Assembly (NCBI GenBank): GCA_017626295.1
Contig: JAGAJB010000002.1
Span: 62,001 to 126,000, forward strand
Length of the DNA stretch: 64,000 nt
DNA from: Clostridia bacterium
GTDB taxonomy: Bacteria > Bacillota > Clostridia > Oscillospirales > Acutalibacteraceae
Reading direction: 5' to 3'
Under the pieces are notes generated by a model that was not told the origin of the DNA, did no database searches, and saw nothing but the letters and a program-made list of their open reading frames with translations. Made by a program: the position numbers and the translations under genes. Below are positions 3,804-64,000 of this stretch, in pieces. Within the stretch, counting starts at the first letter, position 1, and the number at the start of each line of letters is the position of its first letter.

Positions 3804-5477
3804 ATGAAAAAAAGTAAAAAGATATTATGTGTAATCTTGGCAGTGATTGTCGCTTTTGCAGGTGCTTTTGCAATTTTTGCAAGCGGTGTTTTCAATAAAT
3901 ATGTATTCAGCATTGATGCATCTGAAAAAGGTAAAGTGTTACATAATGTTGTTAACAATGTGAATATATGGTCAATAGAGGGTAATCCCTTTGTGAATGC
4001 CCGGATAAACGAAGAAAATAATATCTTCGAGTTCGTTGAGTATGTTCAGTTTATGCAGTGTACGGGCGGTACTGAAACCCGCGACCTTTTTAAAAATCCT
4101 AGCGATAAAACTGTTCTGGATGATTACGATTTCACTTTACTTATAAATAACTGTCGCGGAGTATTGAATTTAGGCGCAAAACCGTTTTTGAAACTCGGCA
4201 ATGTTCCGCTTAAATTTTCAAAGGATGCTACTACTGAAATCGGTTTCGGTATGAATCCATATCCCCCCGATGATTTTGATGTTTATTACAACTATATCCA
4301 CGCCCTTGCAACAGAACTTGTTAAAGAATTCGGTAAGGAAGAAGTTCTTACCTGGCGCTTCGGTGTTATGACCGAATATGAAAATGCGGCTTGGTTTTTT
4401 GCAGATGAGGAAGACCCCGAAGCATCCGCAGAGGCATACTGCAAACTTTATGATTATTCGGTTGCTGCGTTGCAGGATGCAATAGGTGAAGGCGTTTTTG
4501 TCGGCGCTCATTCAATGACAGTTACTGAAGGTCTTTGGGATGAAGCAGAGTTTATAAAACATTGCGGTGAGGGTACTAACTACAAAACAGGTAAAAAAGG
4601 TACAAGAGTTTGCTACCTTTCATCTTCTTTTTATGATTCTGTTCCCGGTGATTATACCGACGGCAAAACTCTTCCCGAAAGTATAGAATATTTAAGGGAA
4701 ACAGCGGAAAGCGTAGGTCTTAACGACTTGATTTACGGCGTTGATGAGGGCAGAATCCTTGAGGGTAACTCAAGCGGTAATGTGGGAAGTGAATTATTAA
4801 CAAGAACTTGCGGTTATACATATCAGGCGGCTTACGATGCACGTCTTACGGCACAGATGTTTAATAATGATATTGCATATTTCTCTGCGTGGTCCTATCT
4901 TTCAAACGGCTTTTTACAGGGTAACCCAACAGTCAGTTACCACGTGGCAAAGAATGCTGCAAAATTCGGCGGTGCAAACCTTGTAAGCACCGATAAAACT
5001 AAATCGGGTGTTATTTTGGGTTCCGATGTTGATGCAGTATCCGCATTTAATGAAAAGACTAACACTCTTCATGTAATGGCATATAATTTTAAAAACGATG
5101 TTGAGTACAACAAGAGCACTGAAATGACGTTTGAAATAAATGTGCCTCAGTTCAGCGGAAAAAATGTAAAAGTTACCGCTTATGTAATCAATGATGATTG
5201 TAACTACTTTGACGAATGGGTAGAGGACAGAAAGACTTATAATATTACTGACGATTGCTTTGCATGGTCACCGGATGACCCATCAATTGATAATCCCACA
5301 ACTCTTTCTGATGAAAAAGCCAGAGATATATACTTTAACGAACTTTACAGTAAGTATACAGAGTGTTCAAAACTCGTTCCAACTGAAACAGAAATGGTTG
5401 CAAAAGACGGAAAGATTACTTTAGATATAACCCTTGATCCTCACGCGGTAGTGTTTTATGAGATAACAGCGAAATAA
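3804..5477 (+). CDS. Membrane-anchored GH39-like glycoside hydrolase
   Basis: Probable extracellular glycosidase with a clan GH-A (TIM barrel) fold, closest by motif to GH39 xylosidase-like proteins. An N-terminal hydrophobic helix (about residues 7-28) acts as signal or anchor. TWRFGVMTEYENAAWF (about 183-198) resembles the GH39 strand-4 motif in which Glu is the acid/base. YGVDEGRIL (about 311-319) could hold the nucleophile Glu. A beta-rich C-terminal part follows, as in GH39 (VTAYVINDD; DPHAVVFYEI). Length is 557 residues. The start has AAAGGGA upstream. It stands alone between a divergent phosphate transporter and an intergenic repeat that begins at its stop codon. The substrate cannot be told, and other GH-A families are possible. 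Confidence 0.6.
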   Translation: MKKSKKILCVILAVIVAFAGAFAIFASGVFNKYVFSIDASEKGKVLHNVVNNVNIWSIEGNPFVNARINEENNIFEFVEYVQFMQCTGGTETRDLFKNPSDKTVLDDYDFTLLINNCRGVLNLGAKPFLKLGNVPLKFSKDATTEIGFGMNPYPPDDFDVYYNYIHALATELVKEFGKEEVLTWRFGVMTEYENAAWFFADEEDPEASAEAYCKLYDYSVAALQDAIGEGVFVGAHSMTVTEGLWDEAEFIKHCGEGTNYKTGKKGTRVCYLSSSFYDSVPGDYTDGKTLPESIEYLRETAESVGLNDLIYGVDEGRILEGNSSGNVGSELLTRTCGYTYQAAYDARLTAQMFNNDIAYFSAWSYLSNGFLQGNPTVSYHVAKNAAKFGGANLVSTDKTKSGVILGSDVDAVSAFNEKTNTLHVMAYNFKNDVEYNKSTEMTFEINVPQFSGKNVKVTAYVINDDCNYFDEWVEDRKTYNITDDCFAWSPDDPSIDNPTTLSDEKARDIYFNELYSKYTECSKLVPTETEMVAKDGKITLDITLDPHAVVFYEITAK

Positions 5478-52933: not shown

Positions 52934-52979
52934 AAATGTGCCCGAAGAAAAGTAGCTACACTTCGCGCCGAAAATAAAA

Positions 52980-53068
52980 CAGGGGAGCTGACGGACGTCG
53001 GCTGAGAAAGAAAACATTCCTTTTCTGACCCTAATAACCTGATGCGGATAATGCCGCCGTAGGAAAAA
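52980..53068 (+). promoter_or_regulatory. TPP (thiamine pyrophosphate) riboswitch aptamer
   Basis: The conserved THI-element blocks occur in order: CAGGGGAGCTG, GGCTGAGA (53000-53007), a variable stem of about 20 bases (AAAGAAAACATTCCTTTTCT), GACCCTAATAACCTGATGCG, GATAATGCCGCCGTAGGAAA. It lies directly upstream of a thiamine transporter gene, which is the expected target. Binding of TPP should lower thiT expression through the terminator at 53083-53121. Confidence 0.96.
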
Positions 53069-53082
53069 TAACTCTGATTGTC

Positions 53083-53121
53083 TCTCCTTATGGTTGTGTT
53101 ACCGCCGTAGGGAGATTTTTT
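53083..53121 (+). terminator. Riboswitch-controlled terminator
   Basis: An 11-bp stem with two G-T pairs (TCTCCTTATGG, 53083-53093, with CCGTAGGGAGA, 53105-53115) is followed by TTTTTT. The same CCGTAGG occurs at the 3' end of the aptamer (53057-53063) and can pair with CTTATGG of the left arm (7 bp), so an antiterminator can form when TPP is absent. Confidence 0.85.
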
Positions 53122-58137: not shown

Positions 58138-58189
58138 TAGCCGATAAGAAAAAATGTTATGATAGGCATTTTCATTTGCGTTAAAGTTG

Positions 58190-58218
58190 TTGACATTTCC
58201 GGGAAGTTATTTTATAAT
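58190..58218 (+). promoter_or_regulatory. Promoter of the Ser/Asn-rich protein gene
   Basis: Perfect TTGACA (58190-58195) and TATAAT (58213-58218) with an ideal 17-base spacer lie 43 bases before the chosen start. This is one of the two strongest promoters in the window. Confidence 0.85.
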
Positions 58219-58261
58219 AATGTGGATAAAATGCGAAATTAAGGAATGGAGTGTGCATGTT

Positions 58262-59230
58262 ATGAATATGACACCTATTAAAAAAATAATTATCGGTCTC
58301 GTAGTAGTATGTATTGCAATAACACTTATTACTGCTAATAACCTGACTTCTGTTATGATGCTTATGGCAGCAAAAAATACCGCTGCACAGAACTCAGGCA
58401 ACGTAGTTGTTCAGCAGGGACAGAGTGCTTCTTCAAATAACAGTTCCTCAAGCAGCAACTCATCCGGCACTTCTTCAGGCAACAGTTCCTCAAGTGTATC
58501 TTCAAGCACAGTAGGCGGAAATTCATCAAGCAGTTCTTCAAATAACAGTTCATCTAACAGCAGTTCTTCCAATAATTCAACTGCTCAGGACAACAATTCT
58601 GCTAACACAGGTTCAAACAGCAATGCCGGTGCAACTCAAACTGACGGTCTTAAGATGTATGTTGATGCTATCAATAAGGCAAAATCATCAGCAACCAAAG
58701 TTGTTAAAACAAAGACAAGTGCTTCACACTATAAAGAGCACCTTGTAATTGACGGTAATGCAATTATCAAAGCAACTCTTGAACCCATCGGTAAGAGCCT
58801 TATGGGTACATTTATGAAGGCTTCTGAACCCAATGAAACTATCGATAAGAATGCTCTTCCTCCTCAGAATATTCAGTGTACACTTACAAAGGCTGACCTT
58901 CAGGAAGAACCTAAGATAGAAAAATCCGGTGCTAACACTGTTGTTACATTAGTTCTTAAAGGCGCAAGCGATCCTAAGGCAGGTAGCGGTTTAGGTTCAG
59001 CAGTTTCAATAATTGAAGAACATACAATTACAGATGCAGTTGCAGGTGTTATCGACATTTCAAATATTCACCTTGATTATGATGCTTGCACAATTATCGC
59101 AACTATTGATGCATCCGGTAATCTTGTAGGTCTTTCTGTAAATGCTCCCTGTATTCTTAAACTTACTGCAATGGGCGTTAACGCAGAAGTAGGTATTGAA
59201 TGCTATGACGAGTTCACCATCGCTTATTGA
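58262..59230 (+). CDS. Exported protein with Ser/Asn-rich linker, unknown function
   Basis: A membrane helix (about 6-28) is followed by a low-complexity stretch of about 75 residues made almost only of Ser and Asn with some Gly/Thr (about 50-125). A folded C-terminal domain of about 190 residues comes next, predicted beta-rich, ending AEVGIECYDEFTIAY. No family is recognised. The layout is that of a surface display protein: anchor, flexible wall-spanning linker, outer domain. The ATG at 58262 is chosen by the upstream GGAATGGAG; the longer frame would start inside the promoter. Length is 322 residues. A perfect promoter and a strong terminator make it a highly expressed single gene. Confidence 0.65.
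   Translation: MNMTPIKKIIIGLVVVCIAITLITANNLTSVMMLMAAKNTAAQNSGNVVVQQGQSASSNNSSSSSNSSGTSSGNSSSSVSSSTVGGNSSSSSSNNSSSNSSSSNNSTAQDNNSANTGSNSNAGATQTDGLKMYVDAINKAKSSATKVVKTKTSASHYKEHLVIDGNAIIKATLEPIGKSLMGTFMKASEPNETIDKNALPPQNIQCTLTKADLQEEPKIEKSGANTVVTLVLKGASDPKAGSGLGSAVSIIEEHTITDAVAGVIDISNIHLDYDACTIIATIDASGNLVGLSVNAPCILKLTAMGVNAEVGIECYDEFTIAY
58428..58620 (+). repeat. Ser/Asn codon-rich low-complexity tract
   Basis: Irregular reiteration of TCA/TCT/AGC (Ser) and AAT/AAC (Asn) codons, with short direct repeats such as TCAAATAACAGTTC occurring twice. It encodes the flexible linker of the exported protein. It is not a CRISPR array because units are irregular and in frame. Confidence 0.7.
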
Positions 59231-59248
59231 TTTACTCAATACATAATT

Positions 59249-59278
59249 AAAACACCGTCTTCGGACGGTGTTTTCTTT
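59249..59278 (+). terminator. Terminator with TTCG loop
   Basis: A perfect 11-bp stem (AAAACACCGTC with GACGGTGTTTT) closed by a TTCG tetraloop is followed by TCTTT. Confidence 0.9.
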
Positions 59279-59303
59279 ACTAAAGGAGGGTTTTACGGTA
59301 GCG

Positions 59304-60110
59304 ATGAATAAACAGCCTCAAGATGTAATAACTTGCGAAGGAATAAAAAAATATATTGATTCGGGAGTTGTGAGCCGAATCAATATTGAATATTTAAAAA
59401 AGACAGAATCAACAAACGATATTGTAAAAAAAAGAGCGACTCAAGGTAAAAACGAAGGTCTTTTGGTCATTGCCGGGGAACAAACATCGGGAAAAGGTAG
59501 ACTGGGCAGAAGTTTTTTCTCACCGGGTGACACGGGTGTTTATATGAGTTTGCTTTTAAGACCCAAAATTAAGCCTTCCGATGCGGTTTTGATTACAACT
59601 GCGGCGGCGGTAAGCGTTTGTGAAGCCTTTGAGAAATTGGGTGTAAAAAAACCGCAAATAAAATGGGTTAACGATATATTCGTAAACAATAAAAAAGTTT
59701 GCGGTATTTTAACCGAGGCAAGTTTCGGTGCGGATATAAACACTCTCGATTATGCCATTCTCGGTGTAGGTGTTAATATGTATGAACCCGAAAACAGTTT
59801 CCCCGAAGAAATCAAGGATATTGCAGGCGCGGTATTTTCCCGAAAATCAGAGGATCTAAGAAATAAATTTGTTGCGTATTTTATAAACTCATTCTTTGAC
59901 TGTTACGAGAACCTCGAAAGTAAAAAACATTGCACCTCTTATGCAGAAAGATGTTTTGTTATTGGTAAAGATATAAACGTAATTTCGGGGGACAGTATAA
60001 AACCTGCAAAAGCCCTTTCCGTAGATGAAAATTGCGGGCTTCTTGTGCGTTTTGATAACGGTGAAACCGCTGTTCTTAATTCGGGGGAAATATCCATACG
60101 GACAGTTTGA
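59304..60110 (+). CDS. birA: Biotin--[acetyl-CoA-carboxylase] ligase without DNA-binding domain
   Basis: Attaches biotin to carboxyl-carrier proteins. STNDIVKKRATQGKNEGLLV and GEQTSGKGRLGRSFFSPGDT (the biotinyl-AMP loop GRGRRG-type, here GKGRLG, about 72-77), IKWVNDIFVNNKKVCGIL (catalytic Lys) and YAILGVGVNMYEPE are all present, and the C-terminal SH3-like domain ends the protein. Length is 268 residues; the helix-turn-helix of bifunctional BirA is missing, so it is the monofunctional class that does not repress biotin genes. The first ATG (59304) is 14 bases from AAAGGAGGG, a long gap, but no better start codon lies between. Confidence 0.93.
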   Translation: MNKQPQDVITCEGIKKYIDSGVVSRINIEYLKKTESTNDIVKKRATQGKNEGLLVIAGEQTSGKGRLGRSFFSPGDTGVYMSLLLRPKIKPSDAVLITTAAAVSVCEAFEKLGVKKPQIKWVNDIFVNNKKVCGILTEASFGADINTLDYAILGVGVNMYEPENSFPEEIKDIAGAVFSRKSEDLRNKFVAYFINSFFDCYENLESKKHCTSYAERCFVIGKDINVISGDSIKPAKALSVDENCGLLVRFDNGETAVLNSGEISIRTV

Positions 60111-60215: not shown

Positions 60216-60268
60216 CAGTTTGTATATATGGTAGTATATTGCTATTAGTATCTAATAGGAGGATTATT

Positions 60269-61954
60269 ATGAAAGCAACCAAGAAAATTGTTTGCCTTGC
60301 TCTTGCAATTGTACTTGCAGGTCTTGCTTTAGTTATGCCCGTTTCTGCTGCTAAAACAACACCTCTCATTATTGTGGACGGCATCAATTCAACAAGGCTT
60401 TACACAAATTTCGGTACAGAAGACCAGAAAGAGGCTTTCTTCGGCAGTGACACTGATATTGGCAAAATGATCGAAGAGGTCGGCGCAGCATTCATCAGCG
60501 GATGTATTCAGTTCGGTCTTGCCGATAAGGATTATGAAAAGTTTGCAGACAGTTTCATTCCTACACTTAATAAATATTTTGAACCCGTTTCTTACAGTAC
60601 GGACGGTACACCTAATAATGAATTAGGTTTCTACAAAACTGATAAGACTATTGCAGAATATACAGAGGAAGAGAAGGCACAGCGTTTCACTTCTTTCGTT
60701 TTGGAAACTGCTGAAGTTTACGGCGAAGACAATACATACAGTTTCAGTTACGACTGGACAGCAGACCCCACAGAAACAGCAAAAGAACTCAACAAATTCA
60801 TCGGTGAAGTTAAAGTTAAAACTAACTCAAGAAAAGTTAACGTTGTTGCTATGAGTATGGGTTCTGTAATTATGCTTTCATACTTGGAAGCATACGGCGG
60901 CAGAAGTATCAACAACCTTGTGTTTGCTTCTCCCGCATGGCAGGGCACAAGTATTGTCGGTAACCTCTTTACAGGCAATATCGAACTCGATATTTTCGCA
61001 GTTGAGAACTTCCTTGTAAAATCTGCTGATGTTAGTGCTACAACTCACATTGCGGCATACATCATTTCTTTCATAGCAAGTTATGAAGGTCTTTCACACG
61101 AATATTTCGGCGACATCAATAAAAACATTCAGGGTGTTCTTCCCTATGTTTATGAGGATAGTTTGATTCCCCTTATGGGTGGTATGCCCGGTTTATGGAG
61201 CCTTCTTCCTGCAGAAGATTTCGAGGCTGCTAAGGCATTTATGTTCCCCGAAGGCGTTGATCCTAACCTTGAAGCAATGATCGATAATTATCACGATGTT
61301 CAGATAAATGCTCAGACTATTATCGAAAATGCAGAAAAACATGGTATGAGATTCGGCATCGTTTGCGGTTACAACCGTCAGATGATTCCGCTTAACGAAG
61401 AATACAGACAGAGCGACGAAGTTATCGACGTTGAATATATGACCGGTGGTGCAACATGCGCACTTTATCTCCAGGCACACGATGACTGGGCACAGGTTTA
61501 CAACCAGAAGATTAAAGACGGTCATAACCACATTTCCTGGGATTACAAAGTTGATGCTTCAACCTGTATGTTCCCCGAACAGACATGGCTTATAAAGAAT
61601 ATGAGCCACAGCGATTACAATGCAGATAACGGTACTTTAGATACTATTATATGGCTTCTTAATGCAGATAAGCAGTATACAGTTCACACCGATAAAGAAA
61701 ATCATCCTCAGTTCTCTCTCTACAACACATATAAGAGACACGTAACTCCCATTGCTGTTGACGGTCTTCTTGGTGATGTTGACGGCAGCGGTGCAGTAAA
61801 TACACTTGATGCAAGACTTGCTCTTAAAATTGCATCCGGTCAGAAAACTGCAACAGAAACACAGATTCTCTATGGCGACATTGATGATGACGGCAAAATC
61901 ACAACTGCTGATGCAAGATACATTCTTCACATCGCAGCAGGCGTTGCATTCTAA
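60269..61954 (+). CDS. Secreted LCAT/lipase-like alpha/beta hydrolase with type I dockerin
   Basis: Secreted enzyme of 561 residues. The signal peptide covers about 1-27 (ending VSAA). TPLIIVDGINSTRLYTNF opens an alpha/beta hydrolase fold like lecithin:cholesterol acyltransferase (PF02450). YSFSYDWTADP and VVAMSMGSVIMLSYLEAYGG follow, with nucleophile Ser196 in the elbow AMSMGS (Ala replaces the first Gly). The C-terminal about 60 residues are a type I dockerin with two calcium loops, GDVDGSGAVNTLDARLALKI and GDIDDDGKITTADARYILHI, for binding to a cohesin. AGGAGG precedes the ATG. No cohesin or scaffoldin is in the window. Substrate may be lipid or an esterified polysaccharide. Confidence 0.8.
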   Translation: MKATKKIVCLALAIVLAGLALVMPVSAAKTTPLIIVDGINSTRLYTNFGTEDQKEAFFGSDTDIGKMIEEVGAAFISGCIQFGLADKDYEKFADSFIPTLNKYFEPVSYSTDGTPNNELGFYKTDKTIAEYTEEEKAQRFTSFVLETAEVYGEDNTYSFSYDWTADPTETAKELNKFIGEVKVKTNSRKVNVVAMSMGSVIMLSYLEAYGGRSINNLVFASPAWQGTSIVGNLFTGNIELDIFAVENFLVKSADVSATTHIAAYIISFIASYEGLSHEYFGDINKNIQGVLPYVYEDSLIPLMGGMPGLWSLLPAEDFEAAKAFMFPEGVDPNLEAMIDNYHDVQINAQTIIENAEKHGMRFGIVCGYNRQMIPLNEEYRQSDEVIDVEYMTGGATCALYLQAHDDWAQVYNQKIKDGHNHISWDYKVDASTCMFPEQTWLIKNMSHSDYNADNGTLDTIIWLLNADKQYTVHTDKENHPQFSLYNTYKRHVTPIAVDGLLGDVDGSGAVNTLDARLALKIASGQKTATETQILYGDIDDDGKITTADARYILHIAAGVAF

Positions 61955-61968
61955 ATCATACTAAAATT

Positions 61969-62004
61969 AAATCCCGACGCGTTATGCGTCGGGATTTGTT
62001 TTTT
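61969..62004. terminator. Terminator after the dockerin-lipase gene
   Basis: A perfect 12-bp stem (AAATCCCGACGC with GCGTCGGGATTT) and a 5-base loop are followed by GTTTTTT. It lies between convergent genes and is preceded by A-rich sequence, so it may also act on the minus strand. Confidence 0.9.
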
Positions 62005-62016
62005 ACCGAGTAATAT

Positions 62017-64000
62017 TTATTTCAATTGCAATACCAGGTTTAATACATTTTTGGCGGTTTGTTGCATCTCACCTAGTGTAATGCCGTCGGGTTTGCCGTA
62101 GGTTTTAAGAAGTGTTCCGTCACTTTTCTTAGTACCTGTTCTTTTTCCACCGGGCATAAGTACGTCTACACCTGCTCTTACGCGGTATGCGTTATCTTTG
62201 AGGTTGGGGAATTCGGGACTTGATGTGTACTGCATCCACCAGTCTGTCATAACAAGACCTTGGAAATTCCATTCATTTCTTAAAACTCGCGTACAAAGGT
62301 CATAGTTATAATGACTCCAGACACCGTTTACTTTATTGTAAGATGTCATTATTGTTAAGGGTTGGGCATCTTTTACGCAGATTTCAAAACCTTTAAGATA
62401 AATTTCTCTTAAAGCCCTTTCGGAAAGTCGTGAGTCGTTTCTGTTGCGGTTAGTTTCCTGGTTGTTGCAAGCAAAGTGCTTGGGACAAGCGGCAACACCT
62501 TCGCTCTGTAAACCTTTGACTACGGCTGCGGCAGTTTTTCCTGTTAAGAACGGGTCTTCCGAGTAGTATTCAAAGTTTCTGCCGCAAAGCGGACTGCGGT
62601 GAATGTTCATACCCGGTGCCAATAAAACGTCAGAGCCTTTGACTTTCATTTCACCACCGACTTTTTTGTATACATTGTAGGCTAAGTCAGTATTCCACAT
62701 TGAAGCAAGGGAAGTGCCGTTTGGAAGAAGTGAACAACAAGCCATTATGCGTATACCCGATGGGCCATCTGTTGTTGTTATGGGAGAAACACCTTTTTTT
62801 CTTAAAGAGGGGAGCACACCGCCCATAACACCTGCATTACCTTTAGCACCCAAAGGACTGTTCATCACATAAGCACCACGGCTGATGGCTTCAAGTTCTT
62901 TTGGTGAAAGTTGAGCAATAAATTTTTTTAGTGTTTCTTTACCGCTTTTTACATCCGAAAGGGTAATACCGACATCACCTGTGTAGCCGAAATTTTCGGG
63001 GAGATTTTCAAGTACAATTTTTCTTAAATCATCAGTTGCGAGTGGTACGTTTTCAAAATCATATGTAATTTTTTTGGTATTATCGGTTTTTGCAACAAGT
63101 CTTTCAAAAACTTTTTTCGGTGCAGAAACTTCTTTTAAAGTTTCTGAAACAATAGTTTCATCAAGGGTGAAACTGTATACTTTTTCTGCGGAACGAACAT
63201 CACCGCCAAGGTAGATGTTGTATTCACCTTTTTCGAGAATGTAACAAGATTTATAACCGCTTACACCGCTGTCGTCATAAGATGCAAAAGAATAGAAAGG
63301 AATTTGAAATTCAATTTCGGCTTTCTCGTTTTTTGCCAGTTTTTCAGTCTTTTTAAAACCGCAAAGGCAACGGGAGGACTTTCCTAAAACGCCTTGAGGC
63401 GCTTCGACATATATTTCAATAACGTCTTTAGAATTGTAAGAAGAGTTGTTTTCCGTTGAAACTTTAATGTTCACCGCATTTTCTTTGACTTCGCCACTAA
63501 TAAATGTTCTTTTGAATTTTCCGTAACCTAAACCGAATCCGAAGGGGTAGAGTACAGAATCCTTTTTGAAGGTTTCAAAGTAACGGTAGCCCACAAAAAT
63601 GTCTTCGGTATAATTACAAAATTCTTTATTTCCGAAATCATCGGAACAAGGGTAATCACAATAATTTTCGGCGATGGTGTCGGTAAGTCTTCCCGATGGC
63701 TCTTTTTTACCTAAAAGAACTTCAGCAACAGCATTACCGCTTTCCATACCGCCTTGCCAGGGAATGATTACAGCGCAGTCACCTGTAAGAAGTTCTTTTT
63801 CCCAACTCATATCAATAATACTGCCGATGTTAAGAAGAATTACGGTTTTCTTGAAAGCGGAACTGACCCTAGAAATGAGCGATTTTTCATCGTCTGTTAA
63901 ATAGTAACTGCCCGGGGTTAAGGTGTTTTCCCTGTCTTCGCCTGCGGCTCTGCCTATTACAACTATTGCACAGTCGGATTTTTCCGAGGCTGTTTTTATT
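62017..64000 (-). CDS. GH3 family glycosidase, C-domain-first arrangement (partial)
   Basis: The frame continues without a stop to the right edge of the window, so the 5' end is missing (at least 660 residues seen). The domain order is reversed relative to standard GH3. The GH3 C-terminal alpha/beta domain comes first (CAIVVIGRAAGEDRENT, then PSGRLTDTIAENYCDYP). A fibronectin-III-like domain follows. The N-terminal-type (beta/alpha)8 domain comes last, with ITTTDGPSGIR, GSDVLLAPGMNIHRSP, KHFACNNQETNRN and the nucleophile Asp in LVMTDWW. Such order is known in beta-glucosidases of Ruminococcus and Butyrivibrio. The product probably releases glucose or xylose from oligosaccharides. I see no signal peptide in the available part. 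Confidence 0.9.
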   Translation of the reverse strand, partial: IKTASEKSDCAIVVIGRAAGEDRENTLTPGSYYLTDDEKSLISRVSSAFKKTVILLNIGSIIDMSWEKELLTGDCAVIIPWQGGMESGNAVAEVLLGKKEPSGRLTDTIAENYCDYPCSDDFGNKEFCNYTEDIFVGYRYFETFKKDSVLYPFGFGLGYGKFKRTFISGEVKENAVNIKVSTENNSSYNSKDVIEIYVEAPQGVLGKSSRCLCGFKKTEKLAKNEKAEIEFQIPFYSFASYDDSGVSGYKSCYILEKGEYNIYLGGDVRSAEKVYSFTLDETIVSETLKEVSAPKKVFERLVAKTDNTKKITYDFENVPLATDDLRKIVLENLPENFGYTGDVGITLSDVKSGKETLKKFIAQLSPKELEAISRGAYVMNSPLGAKGNAGVMGGVLPSLRKKGVSPITTTDGPSGIRIMACCSLLPNGTSLASMWNTDLAYNVYKKVGGEMKVKGSDVLLAPGMNIHRSPLCGRNFEYYSEDPFLTGKTAAAVVKGLQSEGVAACPKHFACNNQETNRNRNDSRLSERALREIYLKGFEICVKDAQPLTIMTSYNKVNGVWSHYNYDLCTRVLRNEWNFQGLVMTDWWMQYTSSPEFPNLKDNAYRVRAGVDVLMPGGKRTGTKKSDGTLLKTYGKPDGITLGEMQQTAKNVLNLVLQLK

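Follow-up and report, generated by a model that had tools for sequence, protein, structure and literature searches.

The window, by which we mean the whole 64,000-nucleotide stretch of DNA that was analysed, carries near its downstream end a gene for a hydrolase of the LCAT/LPLA2 fold with a C-terminal dockerin. We consider it rather probable that this protein is an exported lipid-ester hydrolase which its dockerin tethers to cohesins of its own cell at the surface. The kit of parts, consisting of the dockerin-lipase and the cohesins, is real and conserved. The catalysis of the lipase, its substrate, its binding to any particular cohesin and its surface location we infer as follows: an exported serine hydrolase with the LCAT/LPLA2 fold would cleave the ester-linked acyl chains of lipids, and the substrates that we favour are phospho- or galactolipids at the surface of a membrane or micelle; the C-terminal type I dockerin would dock the enzyme, with calcium, onto cohesins shown by the same cell; and the lipase and its fatty-acid products would thereby stay at the cell surface.

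The features of the gene and its surroundings are collected in the table below. Translation is taken to start at the ATG at 60269, which is backed by the AGGAGG at 60257-60262, and the frame ends at 61954; a longer frame, from 60206, opens 5' of this ribosome-binding site. The signal-like N-terminus suggests that the hydrolase is exported.

Table. Features of the dockerin-lipase gene and its immediate surroundings, in window coordinates.
Feature	Position	Strand	Basis
Gene for a predicted secreted hydrolase of the LCAT/LPLA2 fold, dockerin at the C-terminus, 561 aa	60269..61954	+	ORF, Pfam, fold model
AGGAGG ribosome-binding site, before ATG 60269	60257..60262	+	Direct reading
Predicted signal peptide, about residues 1-28	60269..60352	+	KK, hydrophobic helix 2-27 and VSAAK; predicted from sequence
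Alpha/beta-hydrolase catalytic domain, residues 30-490, helical insertion at about 228-346	60356..61738	+	Pfam, AlphaFold, structural matches
Putative catalytic Ser196 in AMSMGS (nucleophile elbow)	60854..60856	+	Nearly invariant in 56 members
Putative catalytic Asp383, after strand 361-368	61415..61417	+	Invariant in 56 members; predicted secondary structure
Putative catalytic His447, after strand 439-443	61607..61609	+	Nearly invariant in 56 members, invariant in 31
Type I dockerin, residues 500-561	61766..61951	+	Pfam; separate AlphaFold model of the tail
Dockerin calcium loop 1, DVDGSGAVNTLD, residues 503-514, complete	61775..61810	+	Sequence and alignment
Dockerin calcium loop 2, DIDDDGKITTAD, residues 537-548, complete	61877..61912	+	Sequence and alignment
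Stem-loop, intrinsic-terminator-like on both strands, between the convergent lipase and GH3 genes	61968..61998	.	Sequence reading
BirA-like biotin-protein ligase, upstream	59268..60110	+	Pfam; in 13/13 ortholog loci
GH3, reversed domain order, runs past the window; 829-aa frame in a longer stretch (L030)	62017..64000	-	Pfam

The identity of the catalytic domain was approached through sequence profiles and through the predicted fold. Two Pfam families just pass their curated cut-offs, namely Lipase_2 around the nucleophile elbow (22.4 bits against 20.3) and LCAT (PF02450) over residues 151-227 only (21.5 bits against 21), which agrees with the description of the protein as an LCAT-like hydrolase in the earlier note; at E 0.001 the LCAT model matches 15 of the 56 members of the family. 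An AlphaFold2 model, built from the lipase and 30 relatives taken from named genome records, reached a mean pLDDT of 81.2, mostly above 90 in the catalytic part. When the Foldseek matches were re-scored by VIA-align, entries for LPLA2 and LCAT took the first nine rows of the structural ranking, with Z values of 20.3-22.6 over 279-297 aligned residues at 13-14% identity, after which come Tle4 (Z 18.8), one more LCAT entry (18.2) and PlaB (18.1), and then ordinary lipases with values of about 17 or lower. The kinship with LCAT is drawn from Pfam and the fold, because the catalytic profile, when searched against PDB sequences, matched small lipases around the elbow and nothing further.

The strong LPLA2/LCAT fold match and the near-invariance of Ser196 also bear out the lipase-like fold with an AMSMGS elbow that had been read from the sequence beforehand. 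A lipase triad is expected to run in the order Ser-Asp-His, with the Asp and the His each placed after a strand. Conservation and the strand order in the model together put forward Asp383 and His447 as the catalytic Asp and His whose prediction had been proposed, and S196-D383-H447 is likely to be the triad of the lipase. Ser196 and His447 are conserved in at least 90% of the 56 aligned rows; Asp429 is also more than 90% conserved in the same alignment and could be the catalytic acid instead of Asp383. This alignment (A1) was drawn from 67 loci (L031-L097), leaving out L031 (the locus of the window), L032 (from a genome that shares contig and match place with that of L073), L052 (stretches of N), L056 and L074 (open at the 5' end), L068 (cut by a contig end), L076, L077 and L092 (near L075), L090 (near L089), L084 (short frame) and L093 (fragment).

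The tail of the protein is a type I dockerin both by sequence profile and by predicted fold. Dockerin_1 (PF00404) matches residues 501-550 with an E value of 1.9e-7 and 31.6 bits, against a cut-off of 22.9, and both calcium loops are complete, as the earlier note had stated; the two 12-residue loops lie within the spacing of about 22-35 residues, and have the flanking helices, by which a type I dockerin is recognized. Because the dockerin was badly resolved in the full-length AlphaFold2 model (pLDDT 30-56), the tail was modelled a second time by itself, which raised the pLDDT to 86.8, and the best 28 Foldseek matches of this second model in the PDB were all dockerins, the top one with a TM score of 0.79. 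As a type I dockerin, the tail would be expected to bind cohesin with calcium.

The conservation of the tail bears on whether it still acts as a dockerin. Thirty-three loci came out of a scan of named species genomes, and 13 of them, the orthologs L061-L073, belong to Clostridia/Oscillospiraceae assemblies, with 50-78% identity in the best segment; by their titles nine of these assemblies come from ruminant or deer gut, and the source of the other four is not stated. The thirteenth ortholog, L068, ends at a contig end and was left out of the count of dockerin tails. It is conceivable that the tail is an EF-hand pair which stabilizes the fold or associates with the wall and has lost cohesin binding, so that the lipase is simply secreted. 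Such a loss would be in keeping with the L069-L073 subclade, in which the glycine of loop 1 is lost (DVDHDFLITTKD in L069) and in which the dockerin of L071, scored singly, reaches 16.3 bits, below the cut-off of 22.9; it would also be in keeping with the lack of a dockerin in most paralogs of the lipase, including the four other family copies among the five in the own genome, and with R. albus, which is reported in PMC4081043 to be cohesin-deficient though dockerin-encoding. We nevertheless regard it as rather improbable, as two calcium loops, with calcium ligands and flanking helices kept, are found in all 12 orthologs with a complete C-terminus, and cohesins are found in the own genome and in all 13 ortholog genomes. 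The earlier note had named the absence of any cohesin, together with loss of calcium ligands in relatives, as the observation that would speak against its own proposal, and neither half of this is seen.

The altered loop 1 of the L069-L073 subclade is at least part of the reason why Pfam detects Dockerin_1 at E 0.001 in only 10 of the 56 members. Classified by their tails, the 56 aligned members comprise 17 of dockerin type, 4 resembling membrane anchors and 35 that are neither. On a quick tree, of which the deepest branch is weakly supported, the dockerin copies form one group, and the dockerin label requires a single change, compared to a mean of 14.7 changes when labels are shuffled (0 of 500 shuffles were as low). 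The fusion of the dockerin to the lipase therefore looks old and inherited, and does not look like a recent accident. That four relatives have a tail resembling a membrane anchor suggests a need for retention at the surface in part of the family, while the 35 members with neither dockerin nor anchor indicate that tethering is not essential to it. More distantly, two of five dockerin-bearing members (in G013 and G044) belong to genomes with no cohesin match.

The preferred reading, in which the dockerin docks onto cohesins of the same cell, depends on what cohesins that cell has. A search of the genome for cohesins and further dockerins, which the earlier note had advised, yielded both. The own genome (2.43 Mb, 96% complete) gave four cohesin matches, two of them over the cut-off, in the genome search, and five proteins with one cohesin region each, together with one sortase match. 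Three of the five are neighbours on contig C24 and consist of an N-terminal cohesin followed by FN3 repeats; the fourth, on C36, is a 358-aa protein with a single cohesin and a C-terminal TGD-hydrophobic-RKKK tail of the cell-surface type; and the fifth, on C33, joins a weak cohesin-like region to two dockerins. The cohesin regions, when isolated and compared to the cut-off of 24.1 bits, are weak matches with one exception: the middle C24 protein scores 40.3 and C36 24.2, while the other C24 proteins score 23.6 and 22.4 and C33 scores 16.5. A joint profile of these regions matches solved scaffoldin cohesins, with a best E value of 1.5e-5. Cohesin was not listed by hmmscan for the full-length FN3-rich proteins and was found when their N-terminal regions were scanned alone, so it is probably hidden in the full-length scan by the long repetitive make-up of these proteins. 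No protein with several cohesins was seen among the matches in the own genome, a search in which divergent cohesins could be missed.

The three adjoining C24 genes (G000:C24, about 65017-74463, L019), each combining a cohesin with a long FN3 array, have a make-up that recurs in ortholog genomes, and it is possible that their products are single-cohesin stalks unlike classical scaffoldins. The 482-aa protein with the weak cohesin and two dockerins (G000:C33:130108-131556, L022) is a candidate adaptor.

The cargo carried by the other dockerins helps to weigh the possible substrates. The own genome has 14 dockerin matches in 13 genes, whose cargo includes leucine-rich repeats in three cases (C13, C27 with a subtilase, and C32), an amidase, a PG_binding/SH3 protein, FN3-type repeats, a BD-FAE esterase and several unknowns. 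One alternative is that the lipase is a true dockerin-tethered alpha/beta hydrolase which acts, like other cellulosomal esterases, on an acylated polysaccharide or on a plant ester (acetyl or feruloyl). The BD-FAE esterase on another dockerin gene would fit this alternative, as would the herbivore-gut origin of many relatives and the frequency, in Ruminococcus flavefaciens, of dockerin-borne esterases that act on plant polysaccharide, a table in PMC2930009 giving 22 carbohydrate esterase modules for this species. We consider it unlikely, because the nearest folds are those of phospholipases/LCAT and lipases instead of carbohydrate esterases, because a Pfam scan of the 561-aa lipase found no carbohydrate-binding module, and because Pfam recognizes a glycoside-hydrolase catalytic domain in none of the 13 dockerin genes. 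The best GH9 match in the own genome, at 23.1 bits, lies below the cut-off of 27.7; GH48 gave no match there, and none in the control genomes either. Given that cohesins are present in the genome and that most of the other dockerins are joined to something other than a plant-polysaccharide enzyme, the non-classical cohesin-dockerin assembly suspected in the earlier note is plausible as a set without classical cellulosome cargo.

A different alternative is suggested by the dockerins themselves. The dockerin of the lipase clusters with those of the amidase (Amidase_3), the PG_binding_1/SH3 protein, one leucine-rich repeat protein and three short unknowns, while the subtilase, FN3, C32 and C33 dockerins cluster apart from it, a grouping which is tentative for modules of 60 residues. 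The lipase could accordingly be part of a lytic surface set in which it and dockerin-borne peptidoglycan enzymes act on other bacteria or on the cell's own envelope, and the same N-terminal dockerin-amidase occurs in three relatives. This we hold to be quite improbable, since clustering of such short modules is weak evidence and the amidase is present in only 4 of the 13 ortholog genomes, in one of them as a fragment; for the latter reason the dockerin-amidase was rejected as a constant partner of the lipase. The amidase gene itself is one of two adjacent genes with N-terminal dockerins (G000:C13:7618-11613, L021), Amidase_3 and SH3 with PG_binding, and recurs in a few relatives. A broader and speculative proposal, with a small but appreciable chance of being right, is that the cohesin-dockerin set of the genus is a surface complex for attack on membranes and walls, in which an LCAT-fold (phospho/galacto)lipase, a peptidoglycan amidase and a subtilase are docked side by side on single-cohesin anchors and cohesin-FN3 stalks, and that it is not a polysaccharide machine.

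No partner of the lipase was recognized in the neighbourhood of the gene. The convergent GH3 gene does have the reversed domain order described in the earlier note (GH3_C at residues 3-159, GH3_N at 411-621), but its relevance is not supported, and it was rejected as a partner: it lies downstream in only 5 of the 13 ortholog loci (L061-L064 and L066) and is absent from 7 others whose downstream sequence extends for 3.3-5 kb, while L068 ends too early. By sequence reading, the 829-aa GH3 frame does not begin with an evident signal peptide. Upstream, the BirA gene, a metallo-beta-lactamase-like gene and a 393-aa membrane gene are each kept in 13/13 ortholog loci; their functions are unrelated to that of the lipase, and no operon or functional link was drawn. 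Several other features of the window were recorded. A 347-aa serine/asparagine-rich protein without a Pfam match (58187-59230, +) has a match in 12/13 ortholog loci, a TPP riboswitch (Rfam RF00059, 62.8 bits; 52971-53083, +) precedes a 211-aa frame at 53094, and a 557-aa protein (3804-5477, +) contains a GH39 match of 53 bits. A surface-polysaccharide locus of about 25 genes running one way occupies 8156-33258 (-); the ten genes sampled comprise six glycosyltransferases, an ABC transporter subunit whose end resembles Wzt_C, a polysaccharide pyruvyl transferase, an FrhB/FdhB protein and an acyltransferase.

The frequency of the parts was also followed across related genomes. Cohesin and dockerin matches are each found in 13/13 ortholog genomes, which were chosen for holding the lipase. 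In 150 genomes of the same bacterial family, dockerins occur in 123 and cohesins in 104, counts which are lower bounds, because the loose first look of the genome search misses matches (for own-genome cohesins, 4 versus 2). A member of the lipase family is present in 34 of these genomes, many of which have at least five copies, and no association was found across the 150 with either cohesin (24/34 versus 80/116, p 1.0) or dockerin (31/34 versus 92/116, p 0.13). Since dockerins and cohesins are frequent and are not associated with the lipase, the dockerin-lipase is best seen as one conserved piece of a widespread family habit.

Dockerins and cohesins are usually taken as signs of fibre degradation. 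What is seen here is a dockerin fusion on a probable lipid enzyme that appears to be old and vertically kept, while no plant-polysaccharide hydrolase is recognized among the other dockerin genes of the genome. Should the docking prove real, the plug-and-socket system of gut bacteria would serve for lipids too, and counts of dockerins would overestimate the capacity for fibre degradation.

Among known systems, the classical cellulosome shares with this one the type I dockerin and cohesin folds and the presence of cohesin-bearing proteins in the own genome, and differs in that no GH9 over the cut-off, no gene joining a glycoside hydrolase to a dockerin and, among the matches, no multi-cohesin protein was found in the own genome. 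Non-cellulosomal cohesins and dockerins are reportedly the subject of Peer et al. 2009. The closest structural counterparts of the catalytic domain, LPLA2 (PLA2G15) and LCAT (PF02450; 4x97, 6mvd, 5bv7), have the same alpha/beta-hydrolase core over residues 29-467, with Z up to 22.6, whereas the window lipase is bacterial, carries a dockerin and is about 14% identical to them; among the open-access papers searched, none was listed in terms that point to a dockerin on a phospholipase or on a protein of the LCAT fold. The amylosome of Ruminococcus bromii (PMC5814915) and the proposed mucinolysome of Limousia (PMC12997984) are likewise gut cohesin-dockerin sets with non-cellulase cargo, but carry starch enzymes and mucin enzymes respectively, and the word lipase does not appear in the main text of either paper. 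A further parallel is provided by the predicted dockerin-bearing lipases and esterases of R. flavefaciens FD-1, another gut member of the Oscillospiraceae, which combine a lipase-type domain with a dockerin: PMC3573020 includes lipases among the predicted dockerin-bearing proteins of R. flavefaciens and terms such components intriguing, and a table in PMC2930009 gives a CBM35-Esterase/Lipase-Doc-CBM35-GH26 protein. Those proteins belong to a large cellulosome, and the one architecture given has several modules, CBM35 and GH26 among them. The view of the lipase as an unusual dockerin cargo was thus overstated, in the light both of this precedent and of the frequency of dockerins and cohesins in the family, and the dockerin-lipase varies a theme that is already known and does not amount to a new system.
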